From positions 1 through 23,758 of the IMG/VR virus record IMGVR_UViG_3300025880_000116: 23,758 nt of DNA; one strand, written 5' to 3'. This DNA is from a virus. This document shows, piece after piece, positions 647-19,228 of the stretch. The notes under the pieces were generated by a model. The model had not been told where the DNA came from, searched no databases, and saw nothing but the letters and a program-made list of their open reading frames with translations. Within the stretch, counting starts at the first letter, position 1. Each line of letters opens with the position of its first letter. Position numbers and translations under genes: made by a program.

Positions 647-655
647 GGATGCTCA

Positions 656-2871: not shown

Positions 2872-2878
2872 GTGCTTT

Positions 2879-3109
2879 ATGAGTGATACAGTTATTACAA
2901 TGTCAGACGGCTCAAAGTGGAGACCGTCTACATCCGAAGATAAATTGCAGTGCCACAACTGCGACAACGTGGTAGACACGCCCGAAGAAGTGGCCTCGTA
3001 TCCAGACGGGAATTGCCCAGATTGCGGTGAGTCATGGACAGATGAAACTAAGCGGCATACTAAGATCACCGTAACAATGCCGCAATCCGCAGACGGTGGA
3101 GTTATGTAA
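2879..3109 (+). CDS. Small zinc-ribbon protein
   Basis: The start is placed at ATG 2879 rather than the in-frame ATG at 2777, because the longer version would overlap the preceding gene by 95 bases and only 2879 has a nearby AGGTG ribosome binding site. The 76-aa product has two Cys pairs, C25-H-N-C28 and C46-P-D-C49, 17 residues apart, which is the layout of a rubredoxin-like zinc ribbon binding one metal ion. The protein is otherwise polar and acidic, and ends in ADGGVM. Small zinc ribbons in phages may bind nucleic acid, recruit host proteins or sit in the virion; nothing here decides between these. It is the last gene before a 74-base gap. Confidence 0.65.
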   Translation: MSDTVITMSDGSKWRPSTSEDKLQCHNCDNVVDTPEEVASYPDGNCPDCGESWTDETKRHTKITVTMPQSADGGVM

Positions 3110-3183
3110 AAGTTAGGTGCGAACAATCTCTGGAAACCGTAAAAGTTTTTTGTTAAGGTGAACAAAAGTTAAGGTAGTCTGAC
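3110..3183 (+). promoter_or_regulatory. Short intergenic leader with duplicated GTTAAGGT ahead of the internal virion genes
   Basis: This is the longest gap in the left-hand gene run (74 bases) and lies just before the six coupled virion genes. It contains an 8-base direct repeat, GTTAAGGT, at 3152-3159 and 3168-3175. The second copy supplies the ribosome binding site (AAGG at 3171-3174, nine bases before ATG 3184). I could not find a convincing -35/-10 promoter or a terminator hairpin in it. Confidence 0.3.
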
Positions 3184-4578
3184 ATGCAGTATAACAGTTT
3201 AAAGCAAATGCCGTCTGGCGGATTGGCCTCTTTTCTAGAGTCCAACATGGACGAAATAGGCGACAATGTACTAGCGTTTGGCTCTCCGAGCGGCATTAAC
3301 TCTATGACGGACATTGGCAACCGGATGGCTGAAATGGGCCGAAACGGTGATAATGAGCTTGTTCACATGAAAACGGGAGAGGTTGCGGTTTCTCCTGAAT
3401 TGCTGGAAGAAAATCCACGCTTGGCTAGCGAGCTAGCAAGCGCGTTTCAGCGTTCAAACGTGGACATGGATCGTTATACGGTAGGTTCAGCTGCAAACTC
3501 TATTAACCCGATAACTGGGCAGCGCGAGTTTTTTCTTAAAAAGCTTGTAAAAGGAGTTAAAAAACTCTTCAAAGCAGTTGCTCCTATTATTATTCCTATG
3601 GCGATTAACTTCTTTGCTCCGGGTTTGGGCACGGTTGCAAGTGGCGCTTTGGGCGCGGGCATCGGCACTTTGGTACAGGGCGGTAGTTTTAAAGACGCAT
3701 TTAAGTCTGCGGTTTTGGGCGGGTTTGCTGGCGGCATTTCGGCGGCGGCGAATGTTGGTGGGCCTGCGGGCGCTACTACCAAAATGGGCCGGGCTTTTGG
3801 TACGATGAGCGGAGAGTTTGAGGGCAGCGTTTTTAATCCTACTTCAAGTCTTACTGCCGTATCCAGTCAAGCTCCCGTGTCCGTAAACCCCTCAAATACT
3901 CCCGTTACGGACAAATTAACTCCTCCTGAAAACACAGGCTTTGTTGATTCCGCAAAAAGCTTTTACAACGAGACCCTGTCTCCTAGCAGGAACATGCCGA
4001 CCAATGCGGAGCTTTTTGCGGAGGTCTCTGAACTTCAAACCGCGGCGGCGGCTGAAGGTGTAACATTAAGTCAAAAACAAGCTCTAGATATGGCGACAAA
4101 AAACTTAACTCCCGGCCTAATCTCGCAGTACGCTCCTTTAGCTGCGGTAGGTACTGCGGCAATGGGAGCTTTTGGGGGCTTTGAAACTCCGGAAGCGGAC
4201 TTATCCTCTCCTTATGGATATACAAGCCGCGAAGAGTTTGAGCGTGATCCAAACAAATACAGCATTTATTCGGGCATTAACTTCCAAAGGCCTCTTGTAG
4301 GCCGTCCTGATATCAACCGCAATCCTTTTGTGTTTCAAAATTACCTGAACGAGCCCGTTCAACAGGCCGCGATGGGCGGTGAGATGTTCCCTCGCAAAAA
4401 CGGCTATATAGGGGGTCCCGGAACGGAAACTTCGGACGACATTCCTGCTATGTTGTCAGACGGGGAGTTTGTAATGACGGCCAAGGCGGTTAGAGGACTC
4501 GGAAACGGAAGCCGAAAACAAGGGGTTCGTAAAATGTACGATATGATGCGAGCGTTTGAAGGGGGAGTGGTAGCATAA
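3184..4578 (+). CDS. Putative internal virion protein with a membrane-active glycine-zipper region
   Basis: This 464-aa protein has three recognisable parts. The N-terminus holds QMPSGGLASF and later NELVHMKTGEVAVSPELL (about residues 57-74), a phrase I associate with marine phage structural proteins. Residues 116-130 form a cationic amphipathic stretch (FFLKKLVKGVKKLFK), followed at 131-190 by a hydrophobic, glycine-rich region with several G-x3-G spacings and AVAPIIIPMAINFFAPGLG, suited to insertion into a membrane. The C-terminus (about 397-460) contains MGGEMFPRKNG, then DDIPAMLSDGEFVMTAKAVRG and KGVRKMY-like basic helices; the SDGEFVMTA motif recurs in phage virion proteins. It starts the block of six coupled genes. 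A role as an ejection or pore-forming protein during genome entry is inferred from these features. A holin is less likely because of the length and the structural neighbours. Confidence 0.5.
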   Translation: MQYNSLKQMPSGGLASFLESNMDEIGDNVLAFGSPSGINSMTDIGNRMAEMGRNGDNELVHMKTGEVAVSPELLEENPRLASELASAFQRSNVDMDRYTVGSAANSINPITGQREFFLKKLVKGVKKLFKAVAPIIIPMAINFFAPGLGTVASGALGAGIGTLVQGGSFKDAFKSAVLGGFAGGISAAANVGGPAGATTKMGRAFGTMSGEFEGSVFNPTSSLTAVSSQAPVSVNPSNTPVTDKLTPPENTGFVDSAKSFYNETLSPSRNMPTNAELFAEVSELQTAAAAEGVTLSQKQALDMATKNLTPGLISQYAPLAAVGTAAMGAFGGFETPEADLSSPYGYTSREEFERDPNKYSIYSGINFQRPLVGRPDINRNPFVFQNYLNEPVQQAAMGGEMFPRKNGYIGGPGTETSDDIPAMLSDGEFVMTAKAVRGLGNGSRKQGVRKMYDMMRAFEGGVVA

Positions 4579-6500
4579 TGGCTCAAATTCAAACACAGTA
4601 CAACAATCCCGACATTGAGGCTTACCGCCTTGGTCTTTTGTCTGACACGCAAGGTTTAATTAGAAACCAACAGCTTGGCCGACAGGTCCAAGGTTTGCGC
4701 GGTCAAGTTAACCCTGATACGGGTGTTTCTTACACGGATGCAGAAATAGCGCAGCTTTTAAGCACTCCGGGATCGGGAACAGAGGGAGAAGAAGGCTACG
4801 TTGCCCCTACTAATTACGACCCCGCATACATTTCTTCTATTAGCCAAGACGCTGTTTTCCAACCCCCGGCTTTTCAAGTTGCGGGTTTAAATGTTAATCA
4901 AGCCGACGCTATTGACATGGCCTCTCGGGGCGTGGGCTCTTATAAGCCTTACATTCAAGCTGGAACTTCCACCTTGGGTCAGGGGATTGGTACGGTTGGA
5001 TCGGGCATTAGCGCCGCTCAATCTGGTACAAACTATGCCTTAAGCGGTTTGCAAGATGCGTCCAGTTTGGGTCAGACCGTAGCGGATCGCGCTATTGCGG
5101 GCGGTGCTAATGTCTTAGGCAATCAACGCGCGGGTTTGGCTCAATCTGAAGGCATGATGGGTCAAGCCGTGGCGGGCGGTCAGGCAGGCTTGGGTACAGC
5201 CACATCTAATGCTCGTGGTTTAAACGCCCCCCTACAAGGTAGCCTTGCAAGCTCTACTCAAGGGGGTTTGACCGCTGCTCAACAAGGTCAGCTAGGCGCG
5301 GATCAAGCGGCTTTTTTGGCTCGACAATCCACCGCCGCCGCTCAGAACCAGCTAACAGACGCAGCTAATTTTGGTTTGGGGACGGCGAAATCGGGTATAG
5401 CGCAGCTTGCGGGGGCGTCTGCGGAGTTCGACCCTAGCGGAATAGGCGCTTACAACAACCCGTATCAAGACGCGGTTGTAGCAGCTACTTTAGCAGATTT
5501 GGAGCGCGTAGCTGCTCGTCGTCAACAAGCGGCTGAAGACGAGGTTACAAGACAGGCAGTTTCCGCCGGGGCTTTTGGCAGCAGTGGTTATGAAAGAGCT
5601 CTGGATCGTTCTATAAACCCCATTCAGGAAGAGCTTGACCGAAACACGGCGTCTGCAATTGCTCAACTGCGGTCTCAGGGGTATGAGTCTTCTGCACAAC
5701 GGGCTATGTCAGCCTTTGAAGCGGCTCGAAACAGGCAGTTACAGACGGCTCAGACAACGGGGCAGTTAGGACAAGCTGGGGCGGCAACTTCTGCAAATGC
5801 GGCTCAAGCGGGCGGGAGTCTAGGACTTGGCGCAGAACAACTGGCGCAGGGAAGCGCCTTGCAGGGCGCTAAACTTGGGTTAGACGCTAATCAAATGGCC
5901 GCCGCTAACGCTCAAGCACTTGCCTCAACCGGGTTAAGTATTGAACAGCTAGCTTCTCAGAATGCTGACTCTGCGGCTAGATTAGGGATGTCAGCGGCAC
6001 AATTTAAAGCTGCTAACGAGAACTCTCTGGCTCAAACAGGTATGGGCGTCGAACAGCTTGCGGCACAAACGGGTATGAACGCGGCTACTTTAGCAGGAAA
6101 CATGGCAAATAGCGCCGGAGGATTGTCTCAGGGGTTAGGTTCTTTGATGACAACCGCGGGTCAGGCTCAAGGTAAAATGGGAATCCAGCAAGCAGGTATA
6201 GGCGAGTTAGAACAGTCCTTGCGCCGAAACGACATTAGTGATCTGTTGACTACAGGCGGCATTCAACAAACAAACGAACAGGCCGTTCTTGACGCGCAAC
6301 GGATGACCGATCAACAGAGTTATCAGCTTCCGTTCCAAGAAACAGGCTTTTTAAGTGACATATACGCGGGTGTTCCAACATCAGCATCCACTGTGACCTC
6401 TGGATCAACTTCCAGTGCGTCACCATTTATGCAGGCGGCTACGCTAGGAATCGGTGGTCTTAGTGCCGCGGCGGGCGCATCAAGAGCGGGGTTATTCTGA
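4578..6500 (+). CDS. Ala/Gln/Gly-rich helical virion protein with 18-residue repeats
   Basis: This 640-aa protein starts inside the previous stop codon (TAATG), with GGGGGAG at 4561-4567 as ribosome binding site. After a polar N-terminus (1-100), residues 125-280 are low in complexity and rich in Ala, Gly, Gln and Ser. Residues 292-395 look like a long helical hairpin: YNNPYQDAVVAATLADLER, then AGAFGSSGYERA, then a second helix. The NPY ... AGAFG-S combination is one I connect with internal or ejection proteins of marine podophages. Residues 397-504 are six consecutive 18-residue repeats. A Ser/Thr-rich linker (600-616) and a short hydrophobic Ala/Gly tail (618-640) end the protein. No enzymatic motif is visible. 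It probably belongs to an elongated helical assembly in the virion, but its exact role is unknown. Confidence 0.55.
   Translation: MAQIQTQYNNPDIEAYRLGLLSDTQGLIRNQQLGRQVQGLRGQVNPDTGVSYTDAEIAQLLSTPGSGTEGEEGYVAPTNYDPAYISSISQDAVFQPPAFQVAGLNVNQADAIDMASRGVGSYKPYIQAGTSTLGQGIGTVGSGISAAQSGTNYALSGLQDASSLGQTVADRAIAGGANVLGNQRAGLAQSEGMMGQAVAGGQAGLGTATSNARGLNAPLQGSLASSTQGGLTAAQQGQLGADQAAFLARQSTAAAQNQLTDAANFGLGTAKSGIAQLAGASAEFDPSGIGAYNNPYQDAVVAATLADLERVAARRQQAAEDEVTRQAVSAGAFGSSGYERALDRSINPIQEELDRNTASAIAQLRSQGYESSAQRAMSAFEAARNRQLQTAQTTGQLGQAGAATSANAAQAGGSLGLGAEQLAQGSALQGAKLGLDANQMAAANAQALASTGLSIEQLASQNADSAARLGMSAAQFKAANENSLAQTGMGVEQLAAQTGMNAATLAGNMANSAGGLSQGLGSLMTTAGQAQGKMGIQQAGIGELEQSLRRNDISDLLTTGGIQQTNEQAVLDAQRMTDQQSYQLPFQETGFLSDIYAGVPTSASTVTSGSTSSASPFMQAATLGIGGLSAAAGASRAGLF
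5766..6089 (+). repeat. Six tandem 18-residue protein repeats (54 bp period)
   Basis: Residues 397-504 of the 640-aa protein split without gaps into six units of 18 residues, starting at 397, 415, 433, 451, 469 and 487. The pattern is (L/T)-G-(L/M)-x-(A/I/V)-x-Q-(L/M/F)-A, clearest in units 2 to 6; the first keeps only the initial L-G and the small-residue composition. Eighteen residues equal five turns of an ideal alpha helix, so equivalent side chains point the same way in each unit. The DNA has diverged between units, so this is an old or selected protein repeat rather than a recent DNA duplication. Confidence 0.8.
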
Positions 6501-9500
6501 TGAACAATACACTTAATCGGCCTTTGTTTCGGCAAATGGGTGGTCCGGCTGCTCCAATGCCCCAAGATATGATGCCGCCTCAAGGTATGATGCCGCCCAT
6601 GAGCCCTGAAGAGGAAGTTATAGACGCCGAGCAAAGCGCAGAAATGGCAGGCCGTGAGTTTGTTGCAAACATGATGGGCAACATCGACGCGGCGGAAGAT
6701 GTTACAAGCATGATTAACGCGCTGCGAGGCAATGACGCGCCTCTTGAAGCGCGGTACTCGGAACTAGCCGGGTATGTTGGCGAAGCGGATGCAAGCCAGA
6801 CTCCTGAAAGTGTCTTAGCGATGGTTCAGCCCGCTATTATGCTAACAGAAGAAGGCGCTATTGACAGCGGTATTGGTGAGTTAATGTCTAAAATGGCGGG
6901 TTCTGAAATGGAGACGCCCGACGGCTCGCCTACTCCGATGGGTCAAGGAGTTGGTGAACTCATGGCAATGGGGGCGGGCAGCACTCCACCCGTAAATTTT
7001 AGGAATGGCGGGCCTGTAGAGGTCCGACGTTTTGCTAATGGAACACCTCCCACGGGTAATTCAAGCGTAATATCTGAAGCTCAAAGGATGGCCCCGGCGT
7101 ACCAAAAGCTTTTTGCAGGCGCTATAGACAGCGAAGCGCGGGCCGCGGACCTTGAAGAACAGAAGCGTTTATCGCAGGCTCAAATACTTTTTGACATAGC
7201 TCAGACGGCTCTGGCCGCTGGAGCGCCTACGGCTACCCCGATGTCGGCTGCGGAGCGCATAGCTGGCGCTGTGGGTCAGACACAACTTTTTGACAAAGTG
7301 GGACAACGGTCCGCGGGTCTTTTGCAGGCTAAACAAGCGCAGGCTGCGGAAGATCGTCAGTTGCGTATGGCTGGTTTGCAAGCAGGCTTGGGTCAGGCTC
7401 AGGCTGAAGAAAAGTTTAGGCAGGAAATGCAGTTGGCTGGGGCTCGGGCTTCAAAAACAGCCCCTGATATGAAAACTATTTATAGGGTTGATGCCGACGG
7501 AAATCCAGAGATTTACGATCAATTTAACATGAAAGACGACAATGATCTTGCTAGGTACAAAGCTTTTATTGACCCAGAAAATCAAAAATCGTTAGGCTTT
7601 AAAATCTATAATGCTGAAACTATTAAACCCTTTATAAAGGCTAAAGAAACTCGTCTTACTGGTGAGATCGAAGGTGAAAAAACTTTGCCCACAGAGTTTA
7701 TTGTTAAACAACCGTTCAGTGTTACCCGAAACGGGGTAAAAGTAGAATTTAAAACTGGAGAGTTGGCATATGTAACTCAAAACGAGTTAGATAGACACGC
7801 TAACTCGCTGGGATCGATTTCATCTGGAACAGAAAGAGTAACGCTTTATCCTATCGACGGAATAGGAAGACCAACTGCTTATCTAAAATCCAGTACTCAA
7901 ATCGCCGCTCTTACAGGGCCAGACGGTGGTTACACGCTCGACCCTGCGGCTTATGTAAGTCGTCTCGACGAAGCTAAACAAGAAAGAAAAGAAGAAAGAA
8001 CATTTGTCGATAAAACTTTCTTCTTAATTGATCCTACAGGCAAAACTACACGACAAACAATAAATGTCTCGGGAGAACAGGGCAAAAAAGACGCTGAAGC
8101 TCTTTTAGCACTTGGTTATACAACGGATTCCTCAGAAGCAAATGCCGCGCTTGCTGACGCTTTTGCCCAAAAACAACAAGAACGCGGCTTTAACGCGGTG
8201 CAGTTCTATAGAAAACGTGAAGACGGGGGCTTCGATAGAACCGTCGTAAATGTCGTAACCGCGGAAGGCCGAAATAAAGCTTCGGACCTTTTGAAGGATG
8301 GATACACAACAGATAACGCCGAGGCAAACAAGGCCCTTGATGAGATTTACGGAATAAGAAAAGAAAAACGGACGGAAATGCAAACCATCCAAGCCGAAAT
8401 TCGCGCTCAAACTTTCCTTAAAATGGCAGAAATTCGCGCTGAAGATAGAACTCTTTCTAAAGAAGAGCGGGACGCCGCCGCGCTTCTTGCTAAAGAAGAG
8501 CGCGCAAAGATTGCTCTTATAGAAGCAGAAAACCGCGCAGAAGACCGCACTCTTAGCGCAGAAGACCGAGCCGTGGCCCGCAAAAAAGCTGAAGAGTATA
8601 GAGGCGAGCTCATTGCGGTTCGTTCGGATATTCGCCAAACTAAATTCGATATAGCGAAGGAAAAGAGAGCTTTAGAGACCGCTGTTGCCAAAGAAGGCAG
8701 AGACGCAGTTGCTCCGTTTACAAGAGCAATAGGCGACAAATTGTTCCGGATTGATTTGTCTAAACCAGAGGCCGACCAAATAACGCTTCTCCTAGATGAA
8801 TCTACTATTCCAGATGTGTTTGGCAGCGGAACTACTGGTAAAGTAATGAGCATTGTTTCTAACGAAGACCTGTTGTCAAAGTATGCTAACAATACTTTGT
8901 CCAAAGAGGCGGATGGAATTTCGCCTACGGACATGGAAGCCGCTTTAATTGTTTACAATTCTCCTACCAGCACGGCTTATAGCGCCGATGCAAAAGACAA
9001 TGTTACCACTCCCGGAAAAGCTTTAACTTCTACAATGATTGACGCTTTACGGATTAGAAAGTCAAACGGCCTTAGCGTTCCAACCGGAGTATATTTCCCG
9101 TTCGATAGATTAGATGCAGCGGTTGATAAACGTTTAGGAATTGAAAATGGTTTAGACCAAGCCCCTCCAATGACCGCGTTTTTAGGTGATGCCGCGTGGG
9201 GTTCTAAAGCGTTTGTTCAAAATCTTGTAAACAATGGATTGGAGTTTGTTCAAGCCCCGTCGTACTTTACCGAAGCTAAAGACGCCATAGAAGCTGTAAA
9301 AAACCTTAACCAAGAGTTTTCCACAATATTTTTGGCTGCTGTAGAAATCAGGGACAGTGTATACCAAGGTAAAAAGCTGGACGACTTAACACCAAAACCC
9401 GCCGCGTTTTGGGGAACAGGGCCTGACGCGGCTCGTTCAAAAGCTCTAAACCTTTACGAGCGTTTATCGCGTACAATACAAATAGCTGAAGACCAACTCG

Positions 9501-9739
9501 CTGATCCAAGTATTCCTATGCCGCAAACTGGACCCAAGTCAGTTCAAAGTAAACGAGAGATTATTCAAAAACTAAAAGACCTTAAAGCAGGGTATGGTGT
9601 ACTGGCGGGCCTTGATTTACTATCAAGAGGGATGGACCCGGCAGACATAGCCCGTTCAGCAAAGGAACAGGCGCTCATTGACGAGCTAGACAGGCTTTCC
9701 GGAATAGGTGGAGGTGACGAGAATGACCCCGACAACTGA
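6500..9739 (+). CDS. Large charged coiled-coil internal virion protein
   Basis: This 1079-aa protein begins in a TGATG overlap with the previous gene. The N-terminus is Met/Pro-rich (RQMGGPAAPM, then MMPPQGMMPPM), followed by an acidic helical region and the motif FRNGGPVEVRRFANG (167-181). Residues 190-315 are mostly Ala/Gln helix. Two clear copies of a small alpha/beta domain follow at about 505-557 and 566-619 (each with GYTTD-x-x-EAN-x-AL), with two weaker possible copies at about 326-376 and 446-490. Residues 620-735 form a very charged helix with a 33-residue repeat. The C-terminal third (740-1079) looks globular and unfamiliar. There is no Walker motif, metal site or membrane segment. 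Size, composition and position suggest a major internal or ejection protein, like gp15/gp16 of T7 in role, although no sequence similarity to those is claimed. Confidence 0.55.
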   Translation: MNNTLNRPLFRQMGGPAAPMPQDMMPPQGMMPPMSPEEEVIDAEQSAEMAGREFVANMMGNIDAAEDVTSMINALRGNDAPLEARYSELAGYVGEADASQTPESVLAMVQPAIMLTEEGAIDSGIGELMSKMAGSEMETPDGSPTPMGQGVGELMAMGAGSTPPVNFRNGGPVEVRRFANGTPPTGNSSVISEAQRMAPAYQKLFAGAIDSEARAADLEEQKRLSQAQILFDIAQTALAAGAPTATPMSAAERIAGAVGQTQLFDKVGQRSAGLLQAKQAQAAEDRQLRMAGLQAGLGQAQAEEKFRQEMQLAGARASKTAPDMKTIYRVDADGNPEIYDQFNMKDDNDLARYKAFIDPENQKSLGFKIYNAETIKPFIKAKETRLTGEIEGEKTLPTEFIVKQPFSVTRNGVKVEFKTGELAYVTQNELDRHANSLGSISSGTERVTLYPIDGIGRPTAYLKSSTQIAALTGPDGGYTLDPAAYVSRLDEAKQERKEERTFVDKTFFLIDPTGKTTRQTINVSGEQGKKDAEALLALGYTTDSSEANAALADAFAQKQQERGFNAVQFYRKREDGGFDRTVVNVVTAEGRNKASDLLKDGYTTDNAEANKALDEIYGIRKEKRTEMQTIQAEIRAQTFLKMAEIRAEDRTLSKEERDAAALLAKEERAKIALIEAENRAEDRTLSAEDRAVARKKAEEYRGELIAVRSDIRQTKFDIAKEKRALETAVAKEGRDAVAPFTRAIGDKLFRIDLSKPEADQITLLLDESTIPDVFGSGTTGKVMSIVSNEDLLSKYANNTLSKEADGISPTDMEAALIVYNSPTSTAYSADAKDNVTTPGKALTSTMIDALRIRKSNGLSVPTGVYFPFDRLDAAVDKRLGIENGLDQAPPMTAFLGDAAWGSKAFVQNLVNNGLEFVQAPSYFTEAKDAIEAVKNLNQEFSTIFLAAVEIRDSVYQGKKLDDLTPKPAAFWGTGPDAARSKALNLYERLSRTIQIAEDQLADPSIPMPQTGPKSVQSKREIIQKLKDLKAGYGVLAGLDLLSRGMDPADIARSAKEQALIDELDRLSGIGGGDENDPDN
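8012..8356 (+). repeat. Tandem pair of about 55-residue domains in the coiled-coil virion protein
   Basis: Residues 505-557 and 566-619 of the 1079-aa protein align as two copies of one module. Each has an opening strand (TFFLIDPTGKTTRQTINV and VQFYRKREDGGFDRTVVNV), a helix ending in L-x-x-GYTTD, and a helix starting EAN-x-AL. The DNA coding for the two GYTTD segments (near 8113 and 8299) differs mainly at third positions. Confidence 0.7.
8357..8704 (+). repeat. Charged helix with 33-residue repeat
   Basis: Residues 620-735 are almost entirely Glu, Lys, Arg, Ala and Ile/Leu. The phrase RAEDRTLS occurs twice, at about 646-653 and 679-686, exactly 33 residues apart, each followed by (K/A)-E-(E/D)-R. 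Thirty-three is three hendecads, a spacing typical of long straight or slightly right-handed coiled coils. Confidence 0.65.
9710..9717 (+). promoter_or_regulatory. Very strong Shine-Dalgarno sequence fixing the start of the giant virion gene
   Basis: GGAGGTGA is an eight-base match to the anti-Shine-Dalgarno end of 16S rRNA and lies five bases before ATG 9723. It overlaps the upstream in-frame GTG at 9708, which therefore cannot use it. This makes ATG 9723 the preferred start. Confidence 0.8.
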
Positions 9740-12700
9740 GGACGACATCGTAATTGATTCTCAAGGCCCTGTCATAGAGGATGTTGTAACGGAGCCTGTT
9801 ATAGAGGATGTCGTAGAGCCTGTCGTAGAGCCTGTCGTTAGTGAATACGTTGTGGCACCGTCGCCTCTGGCGGATAACGGGTTTGACTATTATGATTTTC
9901 GGCAGAACGGTAGAATAGATTTTTCTCCGGAATACTTCGAAGAAATAATGAAATTATATGGGTCAAGAAAAAAACTTCGTGGAAATCGGGGTCGTGGAGC
10001 AAACACAGAGGCCACCGTAGCACCAAACACATATACTCCGACACAAGCCTTTGCTATTCAAGCCGCTGCGGAATTTAATGCGCGAACTGGAATGGGAGAC
10101 TATAGGTCTTTAAGGGACGGGACTTCTAAATTTAGACCCGGCGTAAAACTTACAGACAAACAGATTTTAAAATATATCACAACGATGGAGGAAAAAGGCT
10201 TTTTAGAAAGCCTTGGAACGCGCCTTGTTGAAAACGTGCCGTCAGCCACGGCCTTCGGAGCAGGGTTTGCGACGGGTAAAAAAATTCAAAGTATTGCTCC
10301 TAACATTCAAGGCCGTCTTTCTTTTGGAGCACCTGTGCTTGACCGGATGGCTCAAGCGGGTCAAACCGCGTATACCGCGGGCCGTTTTGCAATCCCTTAT
10401 ATTACTGGGATTGCGTCCAGTATATTTAGTGCGGATTACGGGGAACCCTTCGGAGAATTATTTTTAGGCAAGAAGACACTTCCTACACCCGACACTTATT
10501 CAACTATGCGTTCGGGAGAAGTCGCCGCAGACATTGCAGCTTTTTCACCTTATACGTTTTTTGCAGACCGTGCGGCCTCAAACATGTTGACCGATTATTT
10601 CACTAACAGGTTAGCTAATAATTCGGACATGTTTGGAAGAGGGTTTAACTTCTCAGATACCGCATCTACTTCTTTTGCAAAACAATGGAAAAATGCACAG
10701 AAAGTCGCTGCGAAGAGAACAAATACAAGAGGCGATCCTCGTGTATTTGAAGGCAGCGCCGTTCCCGGTCCTTTAAACATAAACGATTTAAACGAGCGTG
10801 GTGTAGCGGCTGTATTGCAAGGAAAGACGGCCCCCGGTGTTCTAAGAATGCTACTGACTATTGAAAACAGTTTAAAAACGGCCGGAAAAGATGCTCGAAA
10901 AAATCCGGGGTTAACATTGTTTTATGAAACAGTGGCCGCAACAGGCGCTAGTCTTTTTGTAAAAGGGGCCGCTGAAAGCAGCCCTTTTGGAAGTGCTGAA
11001 ACTACCGCAGAGTTGCTTGGGGGTATAGCCTTACCTATGTTCGCGGGTCAAACCGTTATAGGGGTTGGTAAAAAAATAGCGCCTTATCTCAAAACATTTA
11101 ATCAGAATAGAAAAGATTTAGGTTTAGTTCGGGGAACGGCGCAGACTGTTAGAGACGTGGCACAAGAAACTAGGGACGAGCGCGGGTTCCTTATGGTTGT
11201 AGATGTTTTAGAAAGAGCGGGTTCTTTAGACGATCCAAAACAACTAAACGAGCTTATTGCATCTTTAGAAGCCGCAAAAACAATTGACGGAAACAGGCAA
11301 ACAGCGGGTCAAGCTTCTAAAAACCCGGCTATTATGGCAATGGAAGCTGCTTTAGCCCGAGACTTCGATAGTCTTAGTGCGGCTCAAAAAGCTGCTAGAC
11401 AAAAAGAAGTAGAATTTCTAGAGGGCGTTTTAGAACAACTTGCGTTTGCGGAAGGTACGGAGTTTTCAAAAGAAGCTTTTACTATTGGAGCGCAAATAAA
11501 AGAAGCTATACAAGAAAGGGCTTTAAATGCGCGTCTTGTGTCCGCGGAACAAAACCTTTTAAAAGCGTTTCAACAAGTTGAAACTTCTGGAAAGCCTGTT
11601 TTAGGACCAGACGGGCAACCTTTAACCGCCGCAGAAAGAACCGCTTTAGATAACGAAGGTGTAATGGACCTTTCAGAACGCTTGTTTGAAATGTTAAAAG
11701 CACAAAAAGGATTTGCTCGCAGTCAACAAGAAACTCTTTATAAAAAAGTTGGAAACCTTAATGTAGACGAATTCTTTACCGATGATGGTGCAACTTCAAC
11801 CGTTCCTAAGTTTATACGGCTTCTTATAGACCAAGACGATGTTATTGAAGAAAGTTCTGTTAAAAAAGAACTTTCGGCACTCTATAGGTTTGCCCAGAGG
11901 CAGTCCGACGCTCTAAACTTAAACTACGATTTAGCTCTGGAAAGACCTGCGGCGGAAAAATTTAGTAAAGCTTTAGATAAGAACACGGCCTCCTTTTCTT
12001 TGGAAATGTTCGAGCTTTTTAGGGCAAAACTTGCCCCTCAATTAGACAACTCAGGCATTCCTGAAGTCGTGACTGATCCAATGATTCGTCAGGTCAGGGA
12101 AGCCCGAAATCAAGTTTCAAAAAGAGACAGCAAAGACCGTTATGATCTATACGACAGCTTTTTAAATGCGCTTATAGAAAAACGAAAAACGCAAGCTCCA
12201 GACGCTACGGCTCAAGCTCAAAACGCGGCACGGGATGCTGAGGCTCGTGATTTTGATGACCAAGCCAGCGTTCTGTTTCAAGGCTTAAACGACGGTGAAA
12301 CGCAATCATTTAATAACTTTATGATAAGCATAGAGAATTTAAACCCTGCTGAAAAAGCTGGAGCAATTCGAAAGTTTGTTGCTGAAAACAGCATGAGACC
12401 CGATGCTCATCCGGGAAAAATTCTAGCGGAAAAGATGGACTTTTTAGCTAGCAACCCGTTAGTAAAAGTTCCTGATGCAAGTCAGGTAGACTCTGCGGGT
12501 ATTTCTCTATCGGAACTTAGACAGATTAGAACAGAAGCTTTAGACATTGCACGAGATGGTCAAAAGTCACCCACTGTTCGAAGGGCCGCTGGCTTGTTTG
12601 CATCTGCGGTCGAAGACGACATTTCTAACTTTTCTAATTTTGGAGGTGGAGACACTTCTTCGGCGCAAATACGGGCTTTGCAAGATGCAAACGCATTTAC

Positions 12701-14384
12701 AAAAGCTTTTGCAGATGTGTTTTACCGCAGTTACGTTGGAGATGCTTTATCTCAGACTAAAGCGGGCGCTTATAGAATTGCGCCCGAAACTATGGGGGCT
12801 AATTTTACAACCTCTCGGTTTGATCCTAATTTCTTAAAAATTAGAGACATAGAAGAAGTCGGTAGATTTATGCGGGACCAAGGAATACCCGGCGGCGAAG
12901 GGGCTTTGGACTCCGTTAATGGCGTTATAGATCGTATAATTAGAACCGCTAGGGCTGAATCCATTGATCCAGAAACAAACGCCGTTTCGCAAAAGCGGTT
13001 GCGTCAATGGTTACAAAAAAACCAACAACTGTCAGAACTCTTTCCAGAAGTCTTTGCGGACCTAAATAATTTTGCGGTTGCAAAAGCTACGTTTGAAGCA
13101 ACAACGTCCGGTGTTTCTGCACAGAAAGCGGCGTTAGAAAAACAGATAAATTATACTAGCGTCTTGCGTAGTAAAACAGGAGAAGTTAGGACGAATCCCA
13201 CTTCGGCAATTGCAGAAGCAATGGCTGCGGGAAAAGATCAAGTTCCGGCGTTAGCTAGGTTAATTGATATTATACCTTCTAAAGGAACCGTTGAAAAAGC
13301 TCCTCTTTACGAAATAACTGATCCAGCAACTGGAATTGTGACAAAGTTTTTTGACCGCAAATCTGCTAGGGCTGCTCTAGAAACTATCCCCGGAGGAAAG
13401 ATTACTCAGAAGAATTTGTCCGTCACTCGTGATGAGGCTTTGGATGGATTTAAGTCTTCGTTTTTTGAATACCTCGTATTTGGACAAGCGGGAGGTAGAG
13501 GCGGCTCTGCAATACAAGACCCTTTAAAACTATACCGAGACCTCTTTGAAAAACGCTTGGTTGTCGGTGGGAAAACGTCCTCTCGTAGAGGTGACAAACG
13601 CCGTTACGACACTCTCACAGGCTACTTACAAAAAAAGGGTGTTTTTAACGAGCAAGAAGTTGCGGGCTTGAAGAAAACTTTAGAAGCATTAATTTCTGCA
13701 AAAACAGACGATGCCGCGGCAATGCTTGGAGAAAACTTTGAAGAGGCCAAGCCAATCCTAGACTTTGGGTTGGCAATCTTCGGCTCCGCAATCGGTACAA
13801 AATCACAGAGCTTATTGACCGGGGGTCAAGGCGGACCGGGGTCAATTATTGCCGCAGGTAAGGGCGCCGAAGCTATGCGCAACATCTTTTTACGGATGCC
13901 TCAAAATCAACGGATGCTGTTTACTGCGGAACTGCTGCAAAAACCAGAATTAATGGCAATGATGCTTAGAAAATATGGGGATGGGGACCAGAAAAAAGGC
14001 GTTGTGCAAACGGTTGTAGACTGGTTAAAAACCAACGGGTTTTCCGTGGCTCCTCGCAGGGCATTTAGTACATCTGTTCAAGGGGACCGGGAACCTACTT
14101 CAGAACAGTTTGACCCCGGCACATTTAAAAACTTACCCTCCAACGACCAACAAGGCGCGGTAGCTCCCGCGCCTGTTGCGGCTCCCGCTCCGCGGCCCCC
14201 GGTCCAGAGACCTTCGCCTGTGGCAACTCCCACCACCCGGGCGTCGGCCGTACCTAGTCCTTCTCCAGACCCCGCGCCTGTTAATACGGGCCCGGTTGAT
14301 AGGACTAGGTACGCTGCCCTGTTTCCTAACGACATGGCTTCAGGTATGATTAGACAATCTCAAGGAATAGGAAGTTTGATATGA
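9723..14384 (+). CDS. Giant internal virion protein of unknown fold (1553 aa)
   Basis: The start is taken at ATG 9723 because of the strong ribosome binding site in front of it; this gives a 17-base overlap with the previous gene. The first 45 residues contain an acidic repeat (PVIEDVV twice, then PVVE and PVVS). A globular region follows, with Gly/Ala-rich hydrophobic stretches around residues 155-215 and 395-450 that could touch membranes. Most of 470-1250 looks like long helices with many Gln, Glu, Lys and Ala. The C-terminus has a Pro/Ala-rich linker (about 1475-1525) and a final segment RYAALFPNDMASGMIRQSQGIGSL that I associate with marine phage virion proteins. Nothing identifies an enzyme. 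The length exceeds T7 gp16 (about 1300 aa), which plays the comparable ejection role. No homology to gp16 or to N4 virion RNA polymerase is visible. Confidence 0.55.
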   Translation: MTPTTEDDIVIDSQGPVIEDVVTEPVIEDVVEPVVEPVVSEYVVAPSPLADNGFDYYDFRQNGRIDFSPEYFEEIMKLYGSRKKLRGNRGRGANTEATVAPNTYTPTQAFAIQAAAEFNARTGMGDYRSLRDGTSKFRPGVKLTDKQILKYITTMEEKGFLESLGTRLVENVPSATAFGAGFATGKKIQSIAPNIQGRLSFGAPVLDRMAQAGQTAYTAGRFAIPYITGIASSIFSADYGEPFGELFLGKKTLPTPDTYSTMRSGEVAADIAAFSPYTFFADRAASNMLTDYFTNRLANNSDMFGRGFNFSDTASTSFAKQWKNAQKVAAKRTNTRGDPRVFEGSAVPGPLNINDLNERGVAAVLQGKTAPGVLRMLLTIENSLKTAGKDARKNPGLTLFYETVAATGASLFVKGAAESSPFGSAETTAELLGGIALPMFAGQTVIGVGKKIAPYLKTFNQNRKDLGLVRGTAQTVRDVAQETRDERGFLMVVDVLERAGSLDDPKQLNELIASLEAAKTIDGNRQTAGQASKNPAIMAMEAALARDFDSLSAAQKAARQKEVEFLEGVLEQLAFAEGTEFSKEAFTIGAQIKEAIQERALNARLVSAEQNLLKAFQQVETSGKPVLGPDGQPLTAAERTALDNEGVMDLSERLFEMLKAQKGFARSQQETLYKKVGNLNVDEFFTDDGATSTVPKFIRLLIDQDDVIEESSVKKELSALYRFAQRQSDALNLNYDLALERPAAEKFSKALDKNTASFSLEMFELFRAKLAPQLDNSGIPEVVTDPMIRQVREARNQVSKRDSKDRYDLYDSFLNALIEKRKTQAPDATAQAQNAARDAEARDFDDQASVLFQGLNDGETQSFNNFMISIENLNPAEKAGAIRKFVAENSMRPDAHPGKILAEKMDFLASNPLVKVPDASQVDSAGISLSELRQIRTEALDIARDGQKSPTVRRAAGLFASAVEDDISNFSNFGGGDTSSAQIRALQDANAFTKAFADVFYRSYVGDALSQTKAGAYRIAPETMGANFTTSRFDPNFLKIRDIEEVGRFMRDQGIPGGEGALDSVNGVIDRIIRTARAESIDPETNAVSQKRLRQWLQKNQQLSELFPEVFADLNNFAVAKATFEATTSGVSAQKAALEKQINYTSVLRSKTGEVRTNPTSAIAEAMAAGKDQVPALARLIDIIPSKGTVEKAPLYEITDPATGIVTKFFDRKSARAALETIPGGKITQKNLSVTRDEALDGFKSSFFEYLVFGQAGGRGGSAIQDPLKLYRDLFEKRLVVGGKTSSRRGDKRRYDTLTGYLQKKGVFNEQEVAGLKKTLEALISAKTDDAAAMLGENFEEAKPILDFGLAIFGSAIGTKSQSLLTGGQGGPGSIIAAGKGAEAMRNIFLRMPQNQRMLFTAELLQKPELMAMMLRKYGDGDQKKGVVQTVVDWLKTNGFSVAPRRAFSTSVQGDREPTSEQFDPGTFKNLPSNDQQGAVAPAPVAAPAPRPPVQRPSPVATPTTRASAVPSPSPDPAPVNTGPVDRTRYAALFPNDMASGMIRQSQGIGSLI
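9768..9839 (+). repeat. Short DNA tandem repeat coding PVIEDVV / EPVV units
   Basis: A 21-base unit starting CCTGTCATAGAGGATG occurs at 9768-9788 and again, with two changes, at 9795-9815. It is followed by 12-base units of the type GAGCCTGTCGTA. The near-identity at DNA level, including third positions, suggests recent slippage or duplication, unlike the older protein repeats of the upstream genes. The product is an acidic, valine-rich N-terminal extension. Confidence 0.75.
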
Positions 14385-15751
14385 ACCGTTCAATGATGCC
14401 CAAGCAAATCATGGCGTATAATCAAGGCGGAATAGCTTCCTTTGTTCCTCAACAGACTCAGATCATGGGACAGCCTCATCGTCTGGCATATGTAAATCCG
14501 CAGGAAGAGCAGATGATGCTCAATGCAGGTGGCGCGGGTCTTCCCGGTCCCGGCGGAATCCCGGCTTACTGGACTCTAACTGAGCCCAGCACTTGGGCGG
14601 GTGGCTCAAACTATGAACCGGGTGCTGGTTTTCAAGGAATTGGAAATTTTAACGCTTCTGACAACAATAATGCCGCGGCTACTAATAACAGTGACGATAA
14701 CGACTCAACTCCGACTTTTAATAGTTTGTCTGAAGCGTCTAAGGCGGGTTACCACGGGCAGGCCGTAAACATTGCGGGCAAGGGCCTTCAGAAGGTTGAG
14801 TTCGCAGACGATAGCTACAACACTCAGATGTCAAATGCTTCGGCGGCAGCTTCTAACGACACCCCCGGCGTAATAGACAGCATCTTGATGAGCATAGGAG
14901 CTAAAAAGAAAACTCCGGGGTATAATGCCGCGGTGGCATTGAATCTAGCAAACAGTTTACTTCCTTATAACCCAACCGCTAATGACGACAATAACAACGT
15001 CGTGGACTCTGTTAATGAAACTGGTACGGACGAAACTGTAGATGGTGAAGAAGAAATTCAATACACTCAGATGAAACCGTTTTATGGTGGTTATCAGCCT
15101 TCCACAATGGCAAGCACTTTAGTACCCTCGCAGTTAACAAGGCCTACTGGGGCAAACCCACGCCTTGATCCGATCTTTCCGCAGCAACCTCCGTCGGACT
15201 TTTATATTGATGACGGCTTCCCGCCTATTGATCCCGGTTTTAATATTGATGATGGAAGAATACGTAACTTTGATTTCGGTGCGCCTGCAAATTTAGGCGA
15301 CACGCATTATGATCCGGAGCTTGACACAACATATACTTATCAGGAAAAGCCTGACGGACAGGGCGGTTTTTATTCGGGTTGGGATATAACCCAAGGTACA
15401 GGCCCCAAAATGGTGCTATACGGCGGAGGTGGATCGCAGGGTTTAATGAACAATGACATCTCTGCTCAAGGCGTCGGAACGAATTTTGGCACGGTTATGC
15501 CAGAAATTAATCCTTTAACGGGCCTGCCACAGACCGCTTCAACAAACAGTGGGGGTCAATTCAATTCTTTGGCAGAGTTAGACGCTTTCCAACAGCAATA
15601 CCCGAGCGCGAACCTGATGGGAGAATATCAAAGGTTAAGAGCTTTAGAGGGCGGTATACCTGCCGTGGCTCAGTTGCCAGACCGAGGTGTAGCCAGCATC
15701 TTTGGTAACGAACAAGCGCCGCAATACATGTATCAAGGGATTATGGGTTAA
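14381..15751 (+). CDS. Low-complexity virion protein of unknown function
   Basis: This 456-aa protein starts in an ATGA overlap with the giant gene. It begins MNRSMMPKQIMAYNQGGIASF and has NAGGAGLPGPGGIPAYW at 48-64. Asn/Asp/Ser/Thr-rich stretches at 91-113 and 200-224 are likely disordered. Between 260 and 300 are Pro/Asp-rich repeated phrases (FYIDDGFPPIDPGFNIDDGRI). The C-terminus has a helix-like segment (LAELDAFQQQYPSANLMGEYQRLRALEGG) and ends in RGVASIFGNEQAPQYMYQGIMG. The opening GGIASF resembles GGLASF near the start of the 464-aa protein. I recognise no domain. It is probably a flexible virion component, given its place between two virion genes, but function is unknown. Confidence 0.5.
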   Translation: MNRSMMPKQIMAYNQGGIASFVPQQTQIMGQPHRLAYVNPQEEQMMLNAGGAGLPGPGGIPAYWTLTEPSTWAGGSNYEPGAGFQGIGNFNASDNNNAAATNNSDDNDSTPTFNSLSEASKAGYHGQAVNIAGKGLQKVEFADDSYNTQMSNASAAASNDTPGVIDSILMSIGAKKKTPGYNAAVALNLANSLLPYNPTANDDNNNVVDSVNETGTDETVDGEEEIQYTQMKPFYGGYQPSTMASTLVPSQLTRPTGANPRLDPIFPQQPPSDFYIDDGFPPIDPGFNIDDGRIRNFDFGAPANLGDTHYDPELDTTYTYQEKPDGQGGFYSGWDITQGTGPKMVLYGGGGSQGLMNNDISAQGVGTNFGTVMPEINPLTGLPQTASTNSGGQFNSLAELDAFQQQYPSANLMGEYQRLRALEGGIPAVAQLPDRGVASIFGNEQAPQYMYQGIMG

Positions 15752-17808
15752 TGTCCATGAACGAAGCTGATAAGGTTAGGGATTTTGGAAACCTAGAATA
15801 CGAAGTAGAGATTAGCCCTTTTTTGGAACCTATTTCTAAGGCGGGTTTTGACCCAAATGTTGTAAAAGTAATGCAAAACGTAGGTTCTAATTACAACCCA
15901 AACACCGATGAAATTATTATTGGAAACTACACGGGGACGGCTAATTTAAGTGAACAAGCACATGAGTTTCGCCATAGAGGATTAAAAAAATTATCTTCAG
16001 AGTTTTTTTTAAACATACCAACTTTAAAAAGAGAAATGCCTCCAGAAGACTTTAAAAGTCTTTTGGATTTTTTTGAAACTGAGAGAAAGCAAAACTTTAG
16101 AAAACGGGGCGCAGCGGGCGGTTTTGGCGCGCCCGGTACTGAAGAATACAAGTTTGACAGGCAAGAAATGATAGCCGAGTTTTTTGAGGAGCCTTACGAT
16201 TACAACCTTCCTGCGCAATATTATGCTGCAACTGGAGAAGACCCCGCGTCAGCAAAATTTCAACGTGTAATGAACATTAATCCAGAAACAAAAGAGCCTT
16301 ATACCGCCGAGGAAAGAGACGCTTATGCGGCGCGTACTGGTACGGTAATAAAAAAGATGTTGCAAAGGGACACGGTTCAAGACCAGATGGATAGACTTGA
16401 AACGGTTGGTCAGAAAGAATTTAGAACGTTCGCAGACGCCGATCCTGAAACTCGGACTGGGGACGAAATATTTAAACAGGCTATGCTTGTTCAAGATTTT
16501 GCAAGAAAACAAAACGATGATGCAAAAAATTACTCTGAAGGGGGCGCAGTTATGAACGGCATTGGAACACTGAACGAAACAGCCCGTAACATGTTTCGCG
16601 GCCCGCGGGGCATTGGCGTTTACCAACAGTATGCAATGGGTGGAGAGGCTTTTGGTCCCCCTCCAATGCGCGGTCCTGATTCGCAGGGGATTGCCCGGTA
16701 CGCTCCCGGCGGTCCTGTGGAAAGTATTCGACCACAAGCTAGACCCGAGTCCGTTCCGGAGTTTTCTGCACCCTTGACCAGTTTACGTCCGCAGCCGAGA
16801 CCCGAGTCCTATTTAAATAATTTGCCAGAAGAAAAGTTTTTTGAAATAAACTCTACTCTCGATGAAAGAGACGGTTTTGAAAAACCTATTATTAAATTTA
16901 AAGACGGCACAAAAATGTTTTTAACAGATGTCGAAAACATGATTAATGGAAATAAAAGCGCGTCCGAACCTATTGTAGGTAAATCAACCGCAGAAGAAGT
17001 CTTGGAATTTTTACAAGAAAAAAACCCGACTAGCCAAGAGTTTTTAAACTACTTTAGTTCTGCGCGACTCGCGGACGGCGGCGAAGTTGAAGAACCATTG
17101 TCTCAGTATCAGGAGGCTCTGATAGCGTCTGAGTCTAGCGGCCGTTCTGATGTTGTAAATGAAAGTGGTTACAGGGGTTTGACTCAAGGTGGAGATGCCG
17201 CAATTTCTGACTTTAAAGATCAAGAGGGTTTGGACTTTACAGATGAAGAATACATAAATAGCCCTGATCTTCAAATGCAGTTTCAAAGATGGTACGAACA
17301 AAAAACCATAAACTATGTGATGGACAAAGGTCTGGATGCTTACATTGGAAGAGTAATAAAAGGCGTTCCAATTACTATGAGCTCTCTGCTCGGCATGGCA
17401 CATATTGGCGGCGATTTTGGAATGCAGCAGTTTTTAGAAACGGGCGGTCGATATGATCCCAACGACGGCAAAACAAGCCTAAGTGATTATGGCCGTAAGT
17501 TCGCAAACATGGCAATTTATGGAGAAAGCGGCGGAGAAAACTTTAACCGCGTCACTCCTGAAGATGCTTTAATGTCCATGCCCGTTGAACAAGAAGGCTC
17601 GTTAGCGTTTTACCGTCCGCGAGCAAGGCCCCCTGAAATAGAATTTTCGGCCCCGTTAACAAGCTTACGTCCGCAAGCACGGACGGTTTCTGAAGAAATG
17701 AGTTCTGTTAACCGCCCACTGGCTCTGCCAGAAGGCCGATCCATGATCGAAAAGTATGGCCTGCCCGGTGACATGCCCGAAAGCGGGATTATGTCAGCCA
17801 TCCGCTAA
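15751..17808 (+). CDS. Virion enzyme: HExxH peptidase-like N-terminus fused to a lytic transglycosylase
   Basis: This 685-aa protein has two enzyme-like parts. In the N-terminal part, a predicted strand (NTDEIIIGNY) precedes H71-E-F-R-H75, matching the zinc metallopeptidase HExxH motif, with a second acidic helix RQEMIAEFFEE (138-147) that could give the third ligand, as in gluzincins. Residues 260-330 are Gly/Pro-rich linker with GGAV, MGGEAF and GGPV motifs. The C-terminal part (about 448-590) resembles a lytic transglycosylase: E461 in SESSGRSD is the likely catalytic glutamate, followed by GYRGLTQGG and GMAHIGGDFGMQQFL ... SLSDYGRKFA. Such domains in virions open the peptidoglycan during DNA entry. 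The repeat EFSAPLTSLRPQ-x-R flanks this domain. The gene starts in a TAATG overlap (ATG 15757 is an alternative) and its end overlaps the minus-strand helicase by 20 bases. The transglycosylase is fairly sure; the peptidase is a motif-based inference. Confidence 0.65.
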   Translation: MSMNEADKVRDFGNLEYEVEISPFLEPISKAGFDPNVVKVMQNVGSNYNPNTDEIIIGNYTGTANLSEQAHEFRHRGLKKLSSEFFLNIPTLKREMPPEDFKSLLDFFETERKQNFRKRGAAGGFGAPGTEEYKFDRQEMIAEFFEEPYDYNLPAQYYAATGEDPASAKFQRVMNINPETKEPYTAEERDAYAARTGTVIKKMLQRDTVQDQMDRLETVGQKEFRTFADADPETRTGDEIFKQAMLVQDFARKQNDDAKNYSEGGAVMNGIGTLNETARNMFRGPRGIGVYQQYAMGGEAFGPPPMRGPDSQGIARYAPGGPVESIRPQARPESVPEFSAPLTSLRPQPRPESYLNNLPEEKFFEINSTLDERDGFEKPIIKFKDGTKMFLTDVENMINGNKSASEPIVGKSTAEEVLEFLQEKNPTSQEFLNYFSSARLADGGEVEEPLSQYQEALIASESSGRSDVVNESGYRGLTQGGDAAISDFKDQEGLDFTDEEYINSPDLQMQFQRWYEQKTINYVMDKGLDAYIGRVIKGVPITMSSLLGMAHIGGDFGMQQFLETGGRYDPNDGKTSLSDYGRKFANMAIYGESGGENFNRVTPEDALMSMPVEQEGSLAFYRPRARPPEIEFSAPLTSLRPQARTVSEEMSSVNRPLALPEGRSMIEKYGLPGDMPESGIMSAIR
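16759..16800 (+). repeat. First copy of EFSAPLTSLRPQ-x-R linker repeat
   Basis: This segment encodes residues 337-350 of the virion enzyme (EFSAPLTSLRPQPR), within a Pro/Arg-rich linker preceding the transglycosylase domain. A second copy lies at 17641-17682 behind that domain. The two share 13 of 14 residues but differ at many third codon positions. Confidence 0.85.
17641..17682 (+). repeat. Second copy of EFSAPLTSLRPQ-x-R linker repeat
   Basis: This segment encodes residues 631-644 (EFSAPLTSLRPQAR) after the transglycosylase domain, preceded by the Pro/Arg-rich YRPRARPPEI, which also resembles the region before the first copy. Protein conservation with synonymous DNA change argues for selection on the peptide. 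Confidence 0.85.
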
Positions 17809-19228
17809 CGTCCTCTTTAAGCACCTGTCCGGCAAGATCAATCTTGCTGCGCAGGGCGTTCAGGACTTTCTCGTCAATGGTGTTGGGCGAAACCAAATCA
17901 ATATAAGTCACGGCGTTCTTCTGCCCGATCCGGTGAGCGCGGTCCTCGGACTGTAGCCTTATCTCAAGATCGTATGAGTTGCTGTAATAGATCACAGTAT
18001 TGGCCGCTGTCAGGGTAATTCCGTATCCACCTGTCTTAGGCTGACCAACAAAGAACCGCAGGGGATCGTTAACGTCTTGAAATCGGTTAACAATCTCCTG
18101 CCGCTCGTCTTGGGGTGTTTCCCCGTAATAAAGTGCGACCGAATCGGGCCCGAAACGGTCGCGCAGGGTCTGGCAAATCTGTTGAATGTCGTGGGTATAC
18201 GACGCCCAAATGATTGCCTTCCCTGATAGCTCGTCTGTAATGCTGGTTAGTTCACTCAGACGGTTATTCTTTAGCGGTTGTATCTTCCCAACGTCGGGCT
18301 GGAAGAAACCGCAGCAAATTTGTTGTAAGCGCATGATCTGCGTCAGAACACTTTCGGTAGTTGCAATCTCCCCATCCAACTGGGCCAAAGCTAACTTCTT
18401 CATCTGCATGTAAACTTTGGCCTGTTCGTCCGTTAGTTCTACATTTCTGCGCGTGTATATTTTGTCAGGAAGGTCTAAGCACTCTTCTTTGAGGATGCGG
18501 GTAGAGAAGTTAAACAAGCGTTCGTTTAGCTCATCAAGGCGTCTGTACCCGGTTATCTCCTGAAAACTACGCGCTCCCATCATACGCTTCTGCACTATAG
18601 CGTATCGGTTTTGAAAGGCAAAGAAACTATTGTAGCCAAGCGCACGTTCGTCCAAGAAATTACACTGACTAAACAAATCCATAGGGCTTTTTGTAACAGG
18701 AGAACCCGTAAGTATGCGGCGGTACTTGCTATACTTAGTCAGTACCATGAGGTTCTTCGTGCGCTGGGCTTTGCGGTTCTTGATAGTCGTGCTCTCGTCT
18801 ACAATCACCATGTTGTCAGGGTTCTGTACCAAAAAGCGTCCCGCCATCCGCGCACCGCGAGGCGAGGAGAAAGCTTCAACGTTGATGACAAATATCTTTA
18901 GACCGTCAAAGTCTTCCATAATCATTTCTTCAAGCTCTGCGGCATACCTTTTACTCATAGTAGGCTTCCAACTTAAAACCTTACGGTTGACGGCCTCAGA
19001 CAGGTGCAACGGTATCTCGCCAAGTGCCCAGTTGTCGTAAACACCCTTGGGTGCAACAATCAACGCCGCGGTGATTTCACCCTTGTCGTAAAGAATGCCC
19101 ATGTTATCAATGGCAACCTTACTCTTACCAGTTCCCATCTCCATGAAGTACGCATGAAACTTCGCGGACCACGAGCCTTCAAGAGCTTTACGCTGATGGT
19201 CGAAGGGTTCTGTTTTGAACTGATACAA
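17789..19228 (-). CDS. SNF2-type superfamily 2 helicase
   Basis: This 479-aa protein carries the SF2/SNF2 motifs in order: Walker A MGTGKS (31-36), VAPKGV (58-63), Walker B with DEST (144-147) in place of DEAH, LTGSPVTKSP (173-182), GGYGITLTAAN (400-410) and motif VI QSEDRAHRIGQ (426-436), a hallmark of the SNF2 family. It is short, with only the two ATPase lobes, like many phage DEXH helicases thought to remodel DNA-protein complexes or assist replication or recombination. The start codon is TTG (19226-19228 on the complement), with AAGGAG six bases upstream; no ATG gives all motifs. It is the only minus-strand gene, has its own promoter, and runs tail to tail into the virion enzyme gene. 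Its exact task (replication, annealing, countering host DNA-bound proteins) is not shown by the sequence. Confidence 0.9.
   Translation of the reverse strand: MYQFKTEPFDHQRKALEGSWSAKFHAYFMEMGTGKSKVAIDNMGILYDKGEITAALIVAPKGVYDNWALGEIPLHLSEAVNRKVLSWKPTMSKRYAAELEEMIMEDFDGLKIFVINVEAFSSPRGARMAGRFLVQNPDNMVIVDESTTIKNRKAQRTKNLMVLTKYSKYRRILTGSPVTKSPMDLFSQCNFLDERALGYNSFFAFQNRYAIVQKRMMGARSFQEITGYRRLDELNERLFNFSTRILKEECLDLPDKIYTRRNVELTDEQAKVYMQMKKLALAQLDGEIATTESVLTQIMRLQQICCGFFQPDVGKIQPLKNNRLSELTSITDELSGKAIIWASYTHDIQQICQTLRDRFGPDSVALYYGETPQDERQEIVNRFQDVNDPLRFFVGQPKTGGYGITLTAANTVIYYSNSYDLEIRLQSEDRAHRIGQKNAVTYIDLVSPNTIDEKVLNALRSKIDLAGQVLKEDVSGWLT

Follow-up and report, generated by a model that had tools for sequence, protein, structure and literature searches.

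We analysed a 23,758-base fragment of the IMG/VR virus record IMGVR_UViG_3300025880_000116 (the window) and focused on a single open reading frame at 15751-17808 (+), which runs from ATG through stop and encodes a protein of 685 aa. This protein is predicted to combine an N-terminal zincin-like metallopeptidase (MPTase) domain, a conserved linker and a C-terminal lytic transglycosylase (LT). The explanation that we favour, at about an even chance, is that it is a polyvalent-type virion or ejection protein whose LT serves entry and whose zincin-like domain is an exchangeable cargo, swapped at the linker.

The HEFRH motif of the N-terminal domain is the sole HExxH among the 7,779 residues of the window's proteins, against 0.025 expected from composition. 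A tblastn search gave one phage relative, KZY1 ORF46 (225 aa, HEFRHRG), and further relatives came from scans of viral contigs in which the query was the N-terminal sequence alone, the linker or a motif pattern. In a set of 25 distinct relatives, H71, E72, R76, G77 and G32 never vary, H75 is present in 24 (the sole exception is L026, where HEFRE replaces HEFRH) and E139 is found in 22 of the 24 that could be aligned. For relatives found with the patterns HEFRHRG or AHEYRHRG, the pattern letters are no independent support for conservation. Twelve relatives were found by non-pattern queries (L003, L007, L011, L012, L013, L015, L026, L029, L030, L052, L053 and L055), of which L052, L053 and L055 are near-identical, so that the independent relatives number fewer than 12; H71 and E72 are present in 12/12 of this set and H75 in all except L026. 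The HExxH is beyond chance, since it is also conserved in relatives that were retrieved without the motif as query. An earlier reading of this DNA from sequence only had proposed a zincin layout with a downstream acidic ligand at 139-143, within RQEMIAEFFEE (residues 137-147). This layout is supported, as H71 and E72 do not vary and H75 departs once among the 25 relatives, and E139 lies downstream. An acidic site at 131-132, taken from a two-sequence alignment, was superseded by E139 in the multi-sequence alignment, and two loci that matched the pattern (L022 and L025) are not relatives.

No metallopeptidase family was matched by the whole protein or by family profiles in PDB sequences, Pfam, PHROGs or NCBIfam; the model scans covered 16 family members for Pfam and PHROGs, and the window protein, L037, KZY1 ORF46 and L007 for NCBIfam. 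A match to the lysozyme 5i8l (0.0006) was rejected because it consisted of a 16-residue match repeated three-fold. Neither the linker query nor that from KZY1/L007 found relatives in bacterial genomes. The N-terminal domain is a family absent from the Pfam, PHROGs, NCBIfam and PDB sequences searched.

An AlphaFold2 model built from 16 sequences (mean pLDDT 70, pTM 0.67) contains a helix at residues 3-24, strands at 38-41, 47-49 and 54-58, a helix at 66-87 carrying HEFRH and a helix at 137-144 carrying E139. The zincin core of polyvalent proteins consists of three strands, an N-terminal helix, the HExxH helix and a Glu helix (PMC5512222), and the predicted order of elements is that of this core. 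Structure prediction had been named by the sequence-only reading as a check, and it placed the HExxH on a helix following three strands and E139 on the next helix, as in gluzincin-type metallopeptidases; a non-zincin fold did not appear. The first 11 Foldseek matches in PDB were, by our reading, all zincins with poor E-values (best 1.1), and nearly all VIA rows were zincins (Z up to 4.5). Lethal factor, ArdC, IrrE/PprI, BlaR1, SPRTN and selecase were among those matched (E at least 1.1, Z at most 4.5), and polyvalent-protein and PolyVal metallopeptidase entries were among the top matches in a viral structure library. This dominance of zincins is no habit of the search tool, because the fold search yielded a mixed set of matches when it was run with an unrelated low-confidence model of another domain. 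The N-terminal domain is most likely a zinc peptidase, in which H71, H75 and E139 would be ligands and E72 the general base; zinc binding and proteolysis are inferred.

The LT region, also proposed in the sequence-only reading from E461 in SESSGRSD, is backed by a match of residues 451-581 to PHROG 26675 'endolysin' (E 1.5e-7) and by the invariance of E461. This residue sits in an ESxG motif with GMAHIGGDFGMQQFL downstream; E461, the subsequent G..G..Q and AHxGG are conserved in the LT alignment, and Sulfitobacter and MedPE phage proteins share E461 and AHxGG. The window protein has no Pfam match, SLT (PF01464) included, and Pfam SLT domains fill the transglycosylase place in L031, L034, L037, L040 and L045. 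A profile of the LT alignment matched only ribosomal proteins in PDB (E 1.4). The fusion of a zincin with an LT had been regarded as unusual, and this was not borne out. Phage polyvalent proteins that contain zincin-like MPTases, in some cases fused to a lysozyme or transglycosylase, have been described (Iyer et al. 2017, PMC5512222; e.g. N4 virion RNA polymerase (RNAP), P1 DdrB and DR90_1081 of a Moraxella prophage), and fusions of the zincin family with an LT recur in other viral contigs (L026, L052-L055 and L071). One of these, L071, combines a ParB-like domain, a zincin and a window-like transglycosylase and is an independent instance of the window's pairing. The member with HEFRE (L026:7965-9962, on a contig shared with L037) is fused to an SLT transglycosylase.

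The linker query identified 28 viral loci, whose proteins differ on both sides of the linker. The cargo slot holds the window's zincin family in the window and L026, a HExGH-type N-terminal domain in L043 and L045, and a HELQH-type domain in L055. It holds an ADP-ribosyltransferase (ART)-like domain in L046 (Pfam ART-PolyVal E 1.1e-4, below cut-off), L034 (E 0.07) and, by eye only, L031, L044, L048 and L040, and a ParB-like domain in L042 (PHROG E 1.1e-6) and L053 (Pfam E 0.015). There is no N-terminal domain in L033, L038 and L039. The zincin sits between linker and LT in L052, L053, L055 and L071, with ParB-like or other domains preceding it in the last three. An AlphaFold2 model of the ART-like cargo of L034 had a mean pLDDT of 61 and gave uninformative fold searches. 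The HExGH domain in the cargo slot of L043 and L045 (4915-7506) has no family match in Pfam or PHROGs. Further HExxH domains lie beside the HExxHRG zincin in the polypeptide at L055:342-1349 (HELQH, downstream GEVEAR) and on the minus strand of L064 (HEIQH), and a ParB-like domain precedes the linker in the modular proteins of L042, L053 and L071.

Mosaic exchange can be seen among near-identical phages. Compared with the window, the helicase of L031, L032, L033 and L044 is 99% identical and g189 and the primase are about 98-99% identical. Despite this near-identity, the N-terminal domain is ART-like in L031 and L044 and missing in L033; L032 is truncated ahead of the zincin. Within the gene, L031 DNA matches only 16537-16697 (91%) and then 17646 onward (93%), without detectable similarity flanking the linker within the protein, whilst L033 DNA matches 16588-17081 (90%) and resumes at 17710 (94%), leaving out the transglycosylase. 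Among proteins with non-matching flanking domains, linker DNA identity is 84-91%. On these alignments the predicted recombination joints are the linker and the C-terminal tail. This modularity, in which the linker joins exchangeable N-terminal domains to exchangeable transglycosylases, seems to be new; linker-based exchange was not found described in the limited selection of literature searched.

An accessory-cargo reading is preferred because the same carrier bears other domains, or none, in the zincin's place. Since variants without the zincin exist, this domain is unlikely to be essential for virion maturation, which favours a swappable and probably injected cargo. The C-terminal LT would help to open the cell wall at entry, and the zincin-like domain would be packaged and injected along with it as an accessory, exchangeable cargo. 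After delivery, the zincin may act on a host protein as its target or on the delivered protein itself. The linker would be the recombination joint at which the cargo and, separately, the transglycosylase are replaced. MPTase, ART, ParB and lysozyme, the alternative cargo kinds, are all on the published list for phage polyvalent proteins (PMC5512222). A wider proposal, which we put forward tentatively and at slightly less than an even chance, is that the ejection genes of a group of phages are closed by a combinatorial cargo locus, in which delivered effectors (three HExxH kinds, ADP-ribosyltransferase-like and ParB-like) and wall-cutters swap independently, so that near-identical phages would deliver different weapons.

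Several observations weigh against the cargo interpretation. The 685-aa product is a putative virion protein, as this assignment rests on the position of its gene at the close of the structural/ejection block. Exchange reaches beyond the cargo domain: identity in the upstream virion genes of L033 and L044 is only ~30%, and the exchanged segment can therefore extend upstream. The ART assignment is weak (E 1.1e-4, below cut-off, and 0.07), and the L034 model is too poor to confirm it. Fold matches of the zincin-like domain are individually non-significant (best E 1.1; VIA Z at most 4.5). The L026 copy, a fused relative without H75, is possibly inactive. Finally, the terminase/portal setting of standalone relatives could suit a role in packaging or maturation.

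These standalone relatives come from unrelated phages. They lie after the portal gene (L011 and L013), in front of it (L009), between terminase and portal (L029) or between the two terminase genes, small and large (L016). A separate transglycosylase gene follows the zincin relative in L015. Downstream of the zincin gene in KZY1 and L007 is a gene for a lysozyme or for a hydrolase that looks CHAP-like by eye, with a membrane segment at the C-terminus. The family is therefore associated with genes for packaging, virion structure and wall entry. The placement in terminase/portal blocks lends some weight to the strongest alternative, which we nevertheless consider unlikely: that the zincin functions in virion maturation or self-processing, cleaving the polypeptide that carries it or internal proteins nearby, whether inside the capsid or during ejection, and freeing the cargo from the transglycosylase. 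Processing has been proposed for polyvalent-protein MPTases, with the processing of phage P1 DdrB as the clue (PMC5512222), and glycine-rich linkers lie between the domains; however, no cleavage site is identifiable. Moreover, some proteins with the same linker and position lack a family-1 zincin, or have no N-terminal domain whatever (L033, L038 and L039), and the existence of such proteins indicates that processing by the zincin is not generally required.

Rather improbable is a zincin-like fold without catalysis, which would serve metal binding or scaffolding, for example as a structural element at the portal. L026 retains both domain and fusion with HEFRE for HEFRH, and R76, G77 and G32 are conserved as strongly as the ligands, but H71 and E72 are the same in all 25 relatives, E139 is kept in 22/24, and a purely structural role would need no general base Glu. 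Still less probable is an exported or lysis enzyme, made late with an accessory peptidase attached and not part of the virion. The name of the matched PHROG (endolysin) and the hydrolase genes with membrane segments that adjoin the zincin gene in KZY1 and L007 point this way; against it, the gene closes a contiguous structural/ejection block, no membrane segment is predicted in the 685-aa protein, and LT domains are established in internal virion proteins similar to T7 gp16 (PMC8954989). A chance HExxH within a non-zincin helical domain, to which the chance occurrence of such motifs and the low fold-search scores might have pointed, is largely refuted by the motif's conservation in relatives retrieved independently of it, the predicted zincin order and the zincin-dominated fold matches, and we regard it as barely credible.

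The features of the window are collected in Table 1. Genes upstream of 15751-17808 match structural/tail families or have counterparts in phage DSL-LC04, and their order is syntenic with the stabilization, tape-measure and DNA transfer proteins of that phage (late virion genes). The gene at 15751-17808 is the final one of this contiguous structural/ejection block, and DSL-LC04 has no counterpart of it. On its 3' side follow a SNF2-type helicase, two function-unassigned genes, a primase and a second helicase, encoded first on the opposite and then on the same strand.

Table 1. Positions of the modular protein, its parts and its neighbours in the window
Feature	Position	Strand	Basis or remark
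Modular protein, 685 aa: zincin-like domain, linker, proline-rich middle, transglycosylase region, C-terminal tail	15751..17808	+	
Zincin-like metallopeptidase domain (predicted), residues about 3-161	15757..16233	+	AlphaFold2 model, alignment of 25 distinct relatives, fold matches
HEFRH, residues 71-75; predicted zinc ligands H71 and H75, general base E72	15961..15975	+	Conservation; helix 66-87, pLDDT about 90
E139, predicted third zinc ligand, helix 137-144	16165..16167	+	E in 22/24 aligned relatives; local pLDDT 64-71
Conserved linker, residues 261-318 (GGxVMxGIGTLNETARNM..RGPRGIG.YQQ.A.GGE)	16531..16704	+	Common to proteins with unrelated flanking domains
Proline-rich and middle region, residues 320-445	16708..17085	+	Residues 280-444: 90% DNA identity in L033; unmatched in L031
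Lytic-transglycosylase-type region, residues 446-585	17086..17505	+	PHROG 26675; relatives annotated peptidoglycan hydrolase
E461, predicted catalytic Glu of transglycosylase	17131..17133	+	Invariant in LT alignment
C-terminal tail (..LALPEGRSMIEKYGLPGDMPESGIMSAIR), conserved	17548..17805	+	57-91% identity in L031, L032, L033, L038
Upstream large virion protein	9708..14384	+	Partly related to 'DNA transfer protein' of phage DSL-LC04: 22.6% over 470 aa, E 1.6e-17
Upstream 456-aa gene, without known domain	14381..15751	+	Pieces recur inside or before the cargo protein in relatives
SNF2-type helicase, convergent; begins conserved replication block	17789..19228	-	99% identical in L031-L033, L044

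Short [YFLM]xxGGx[VIA] motifs occur five times between the domains of the 685-aa protein and also near the N-termini of neighbouring virion genes in window 164-15751 (e.g. MAYNQGGIASF and MPSGGLASFL), and may represent a binding or cleavage motif. A C-terminal segment of the product of 3184-4578 is similar to a motif conserved at the end of tail tape measure proteins (GGPGTxTSDDIPAMLSDGEFV), and the virion structural protein at 656-2575 has a weak, below-cut-off match to the endosialidase beta-barrel PF12195.

The window protein resembles known polyvalent proteins (PMC5512222) in its zincin core, the kinds of partner domain (lysozyme/transglycosylase, ART and ParB) and the late-gene context, but differs from them in lacking a Pfam PolyVal metallopeptidase match, in its smaller size and in the NETARNM linker as exchange joint. 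Biochemically unrelated domains in one polypeptide, a property of polyvalent proteins, are found in the window protein (zincin-like and transglycosylase) and in L053 and L071 (ParB-like, zincin and LT). Mosaic swapping of the wall-cutting domain is known among ejection proteins, and the window protein shares with T7 gp16-type proteins such swapping and a transglycosylase encoded among ejection/structural genes; those proteins, for which no peptidase domain is mentioned, differ from the window protein, which has a gene of its own following the DNA-transfer-protein relative (PMC8954989). In phage KZY1-k141_1027853 (Zobellviridae) the zincin relative ORF46, with HEFRHRG, adjoins the cell-wall hydrolase gene ORF45, but the two proteins are encoded separately and the hydrolase is a lysozyme that is unrelated. 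The 'peptidoglycan hydrolase' of Sulfitobacter phage pCB2047-C and gp28 of EBPR podovirus 2 share the transglycosylase region, ESxG and AHxGG, although searches detected no zincin-like domain in either. A conserved carrier with effector domains exchanged by recombination is also seen in bacterial polymorphic toxin systems (PMC3482391), from which this locus differs in that the carrier is a phage entry-type protein, the variable domain is N-terminal and no immunity gene was seen.

Zincin-like domains are the commonest domains of phage polyvalent proteins, in which they may serve either to process the virion or to attack the host. The locus described here is a natural experiment, in which close relatives have the same carrier with the zincin, with another domain or with nothing, and comparison of these cargo variants would tell maturation and effector functions apart. 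Finally, the conserved linker provides a sequence handle for finding more delivered phage effectors.

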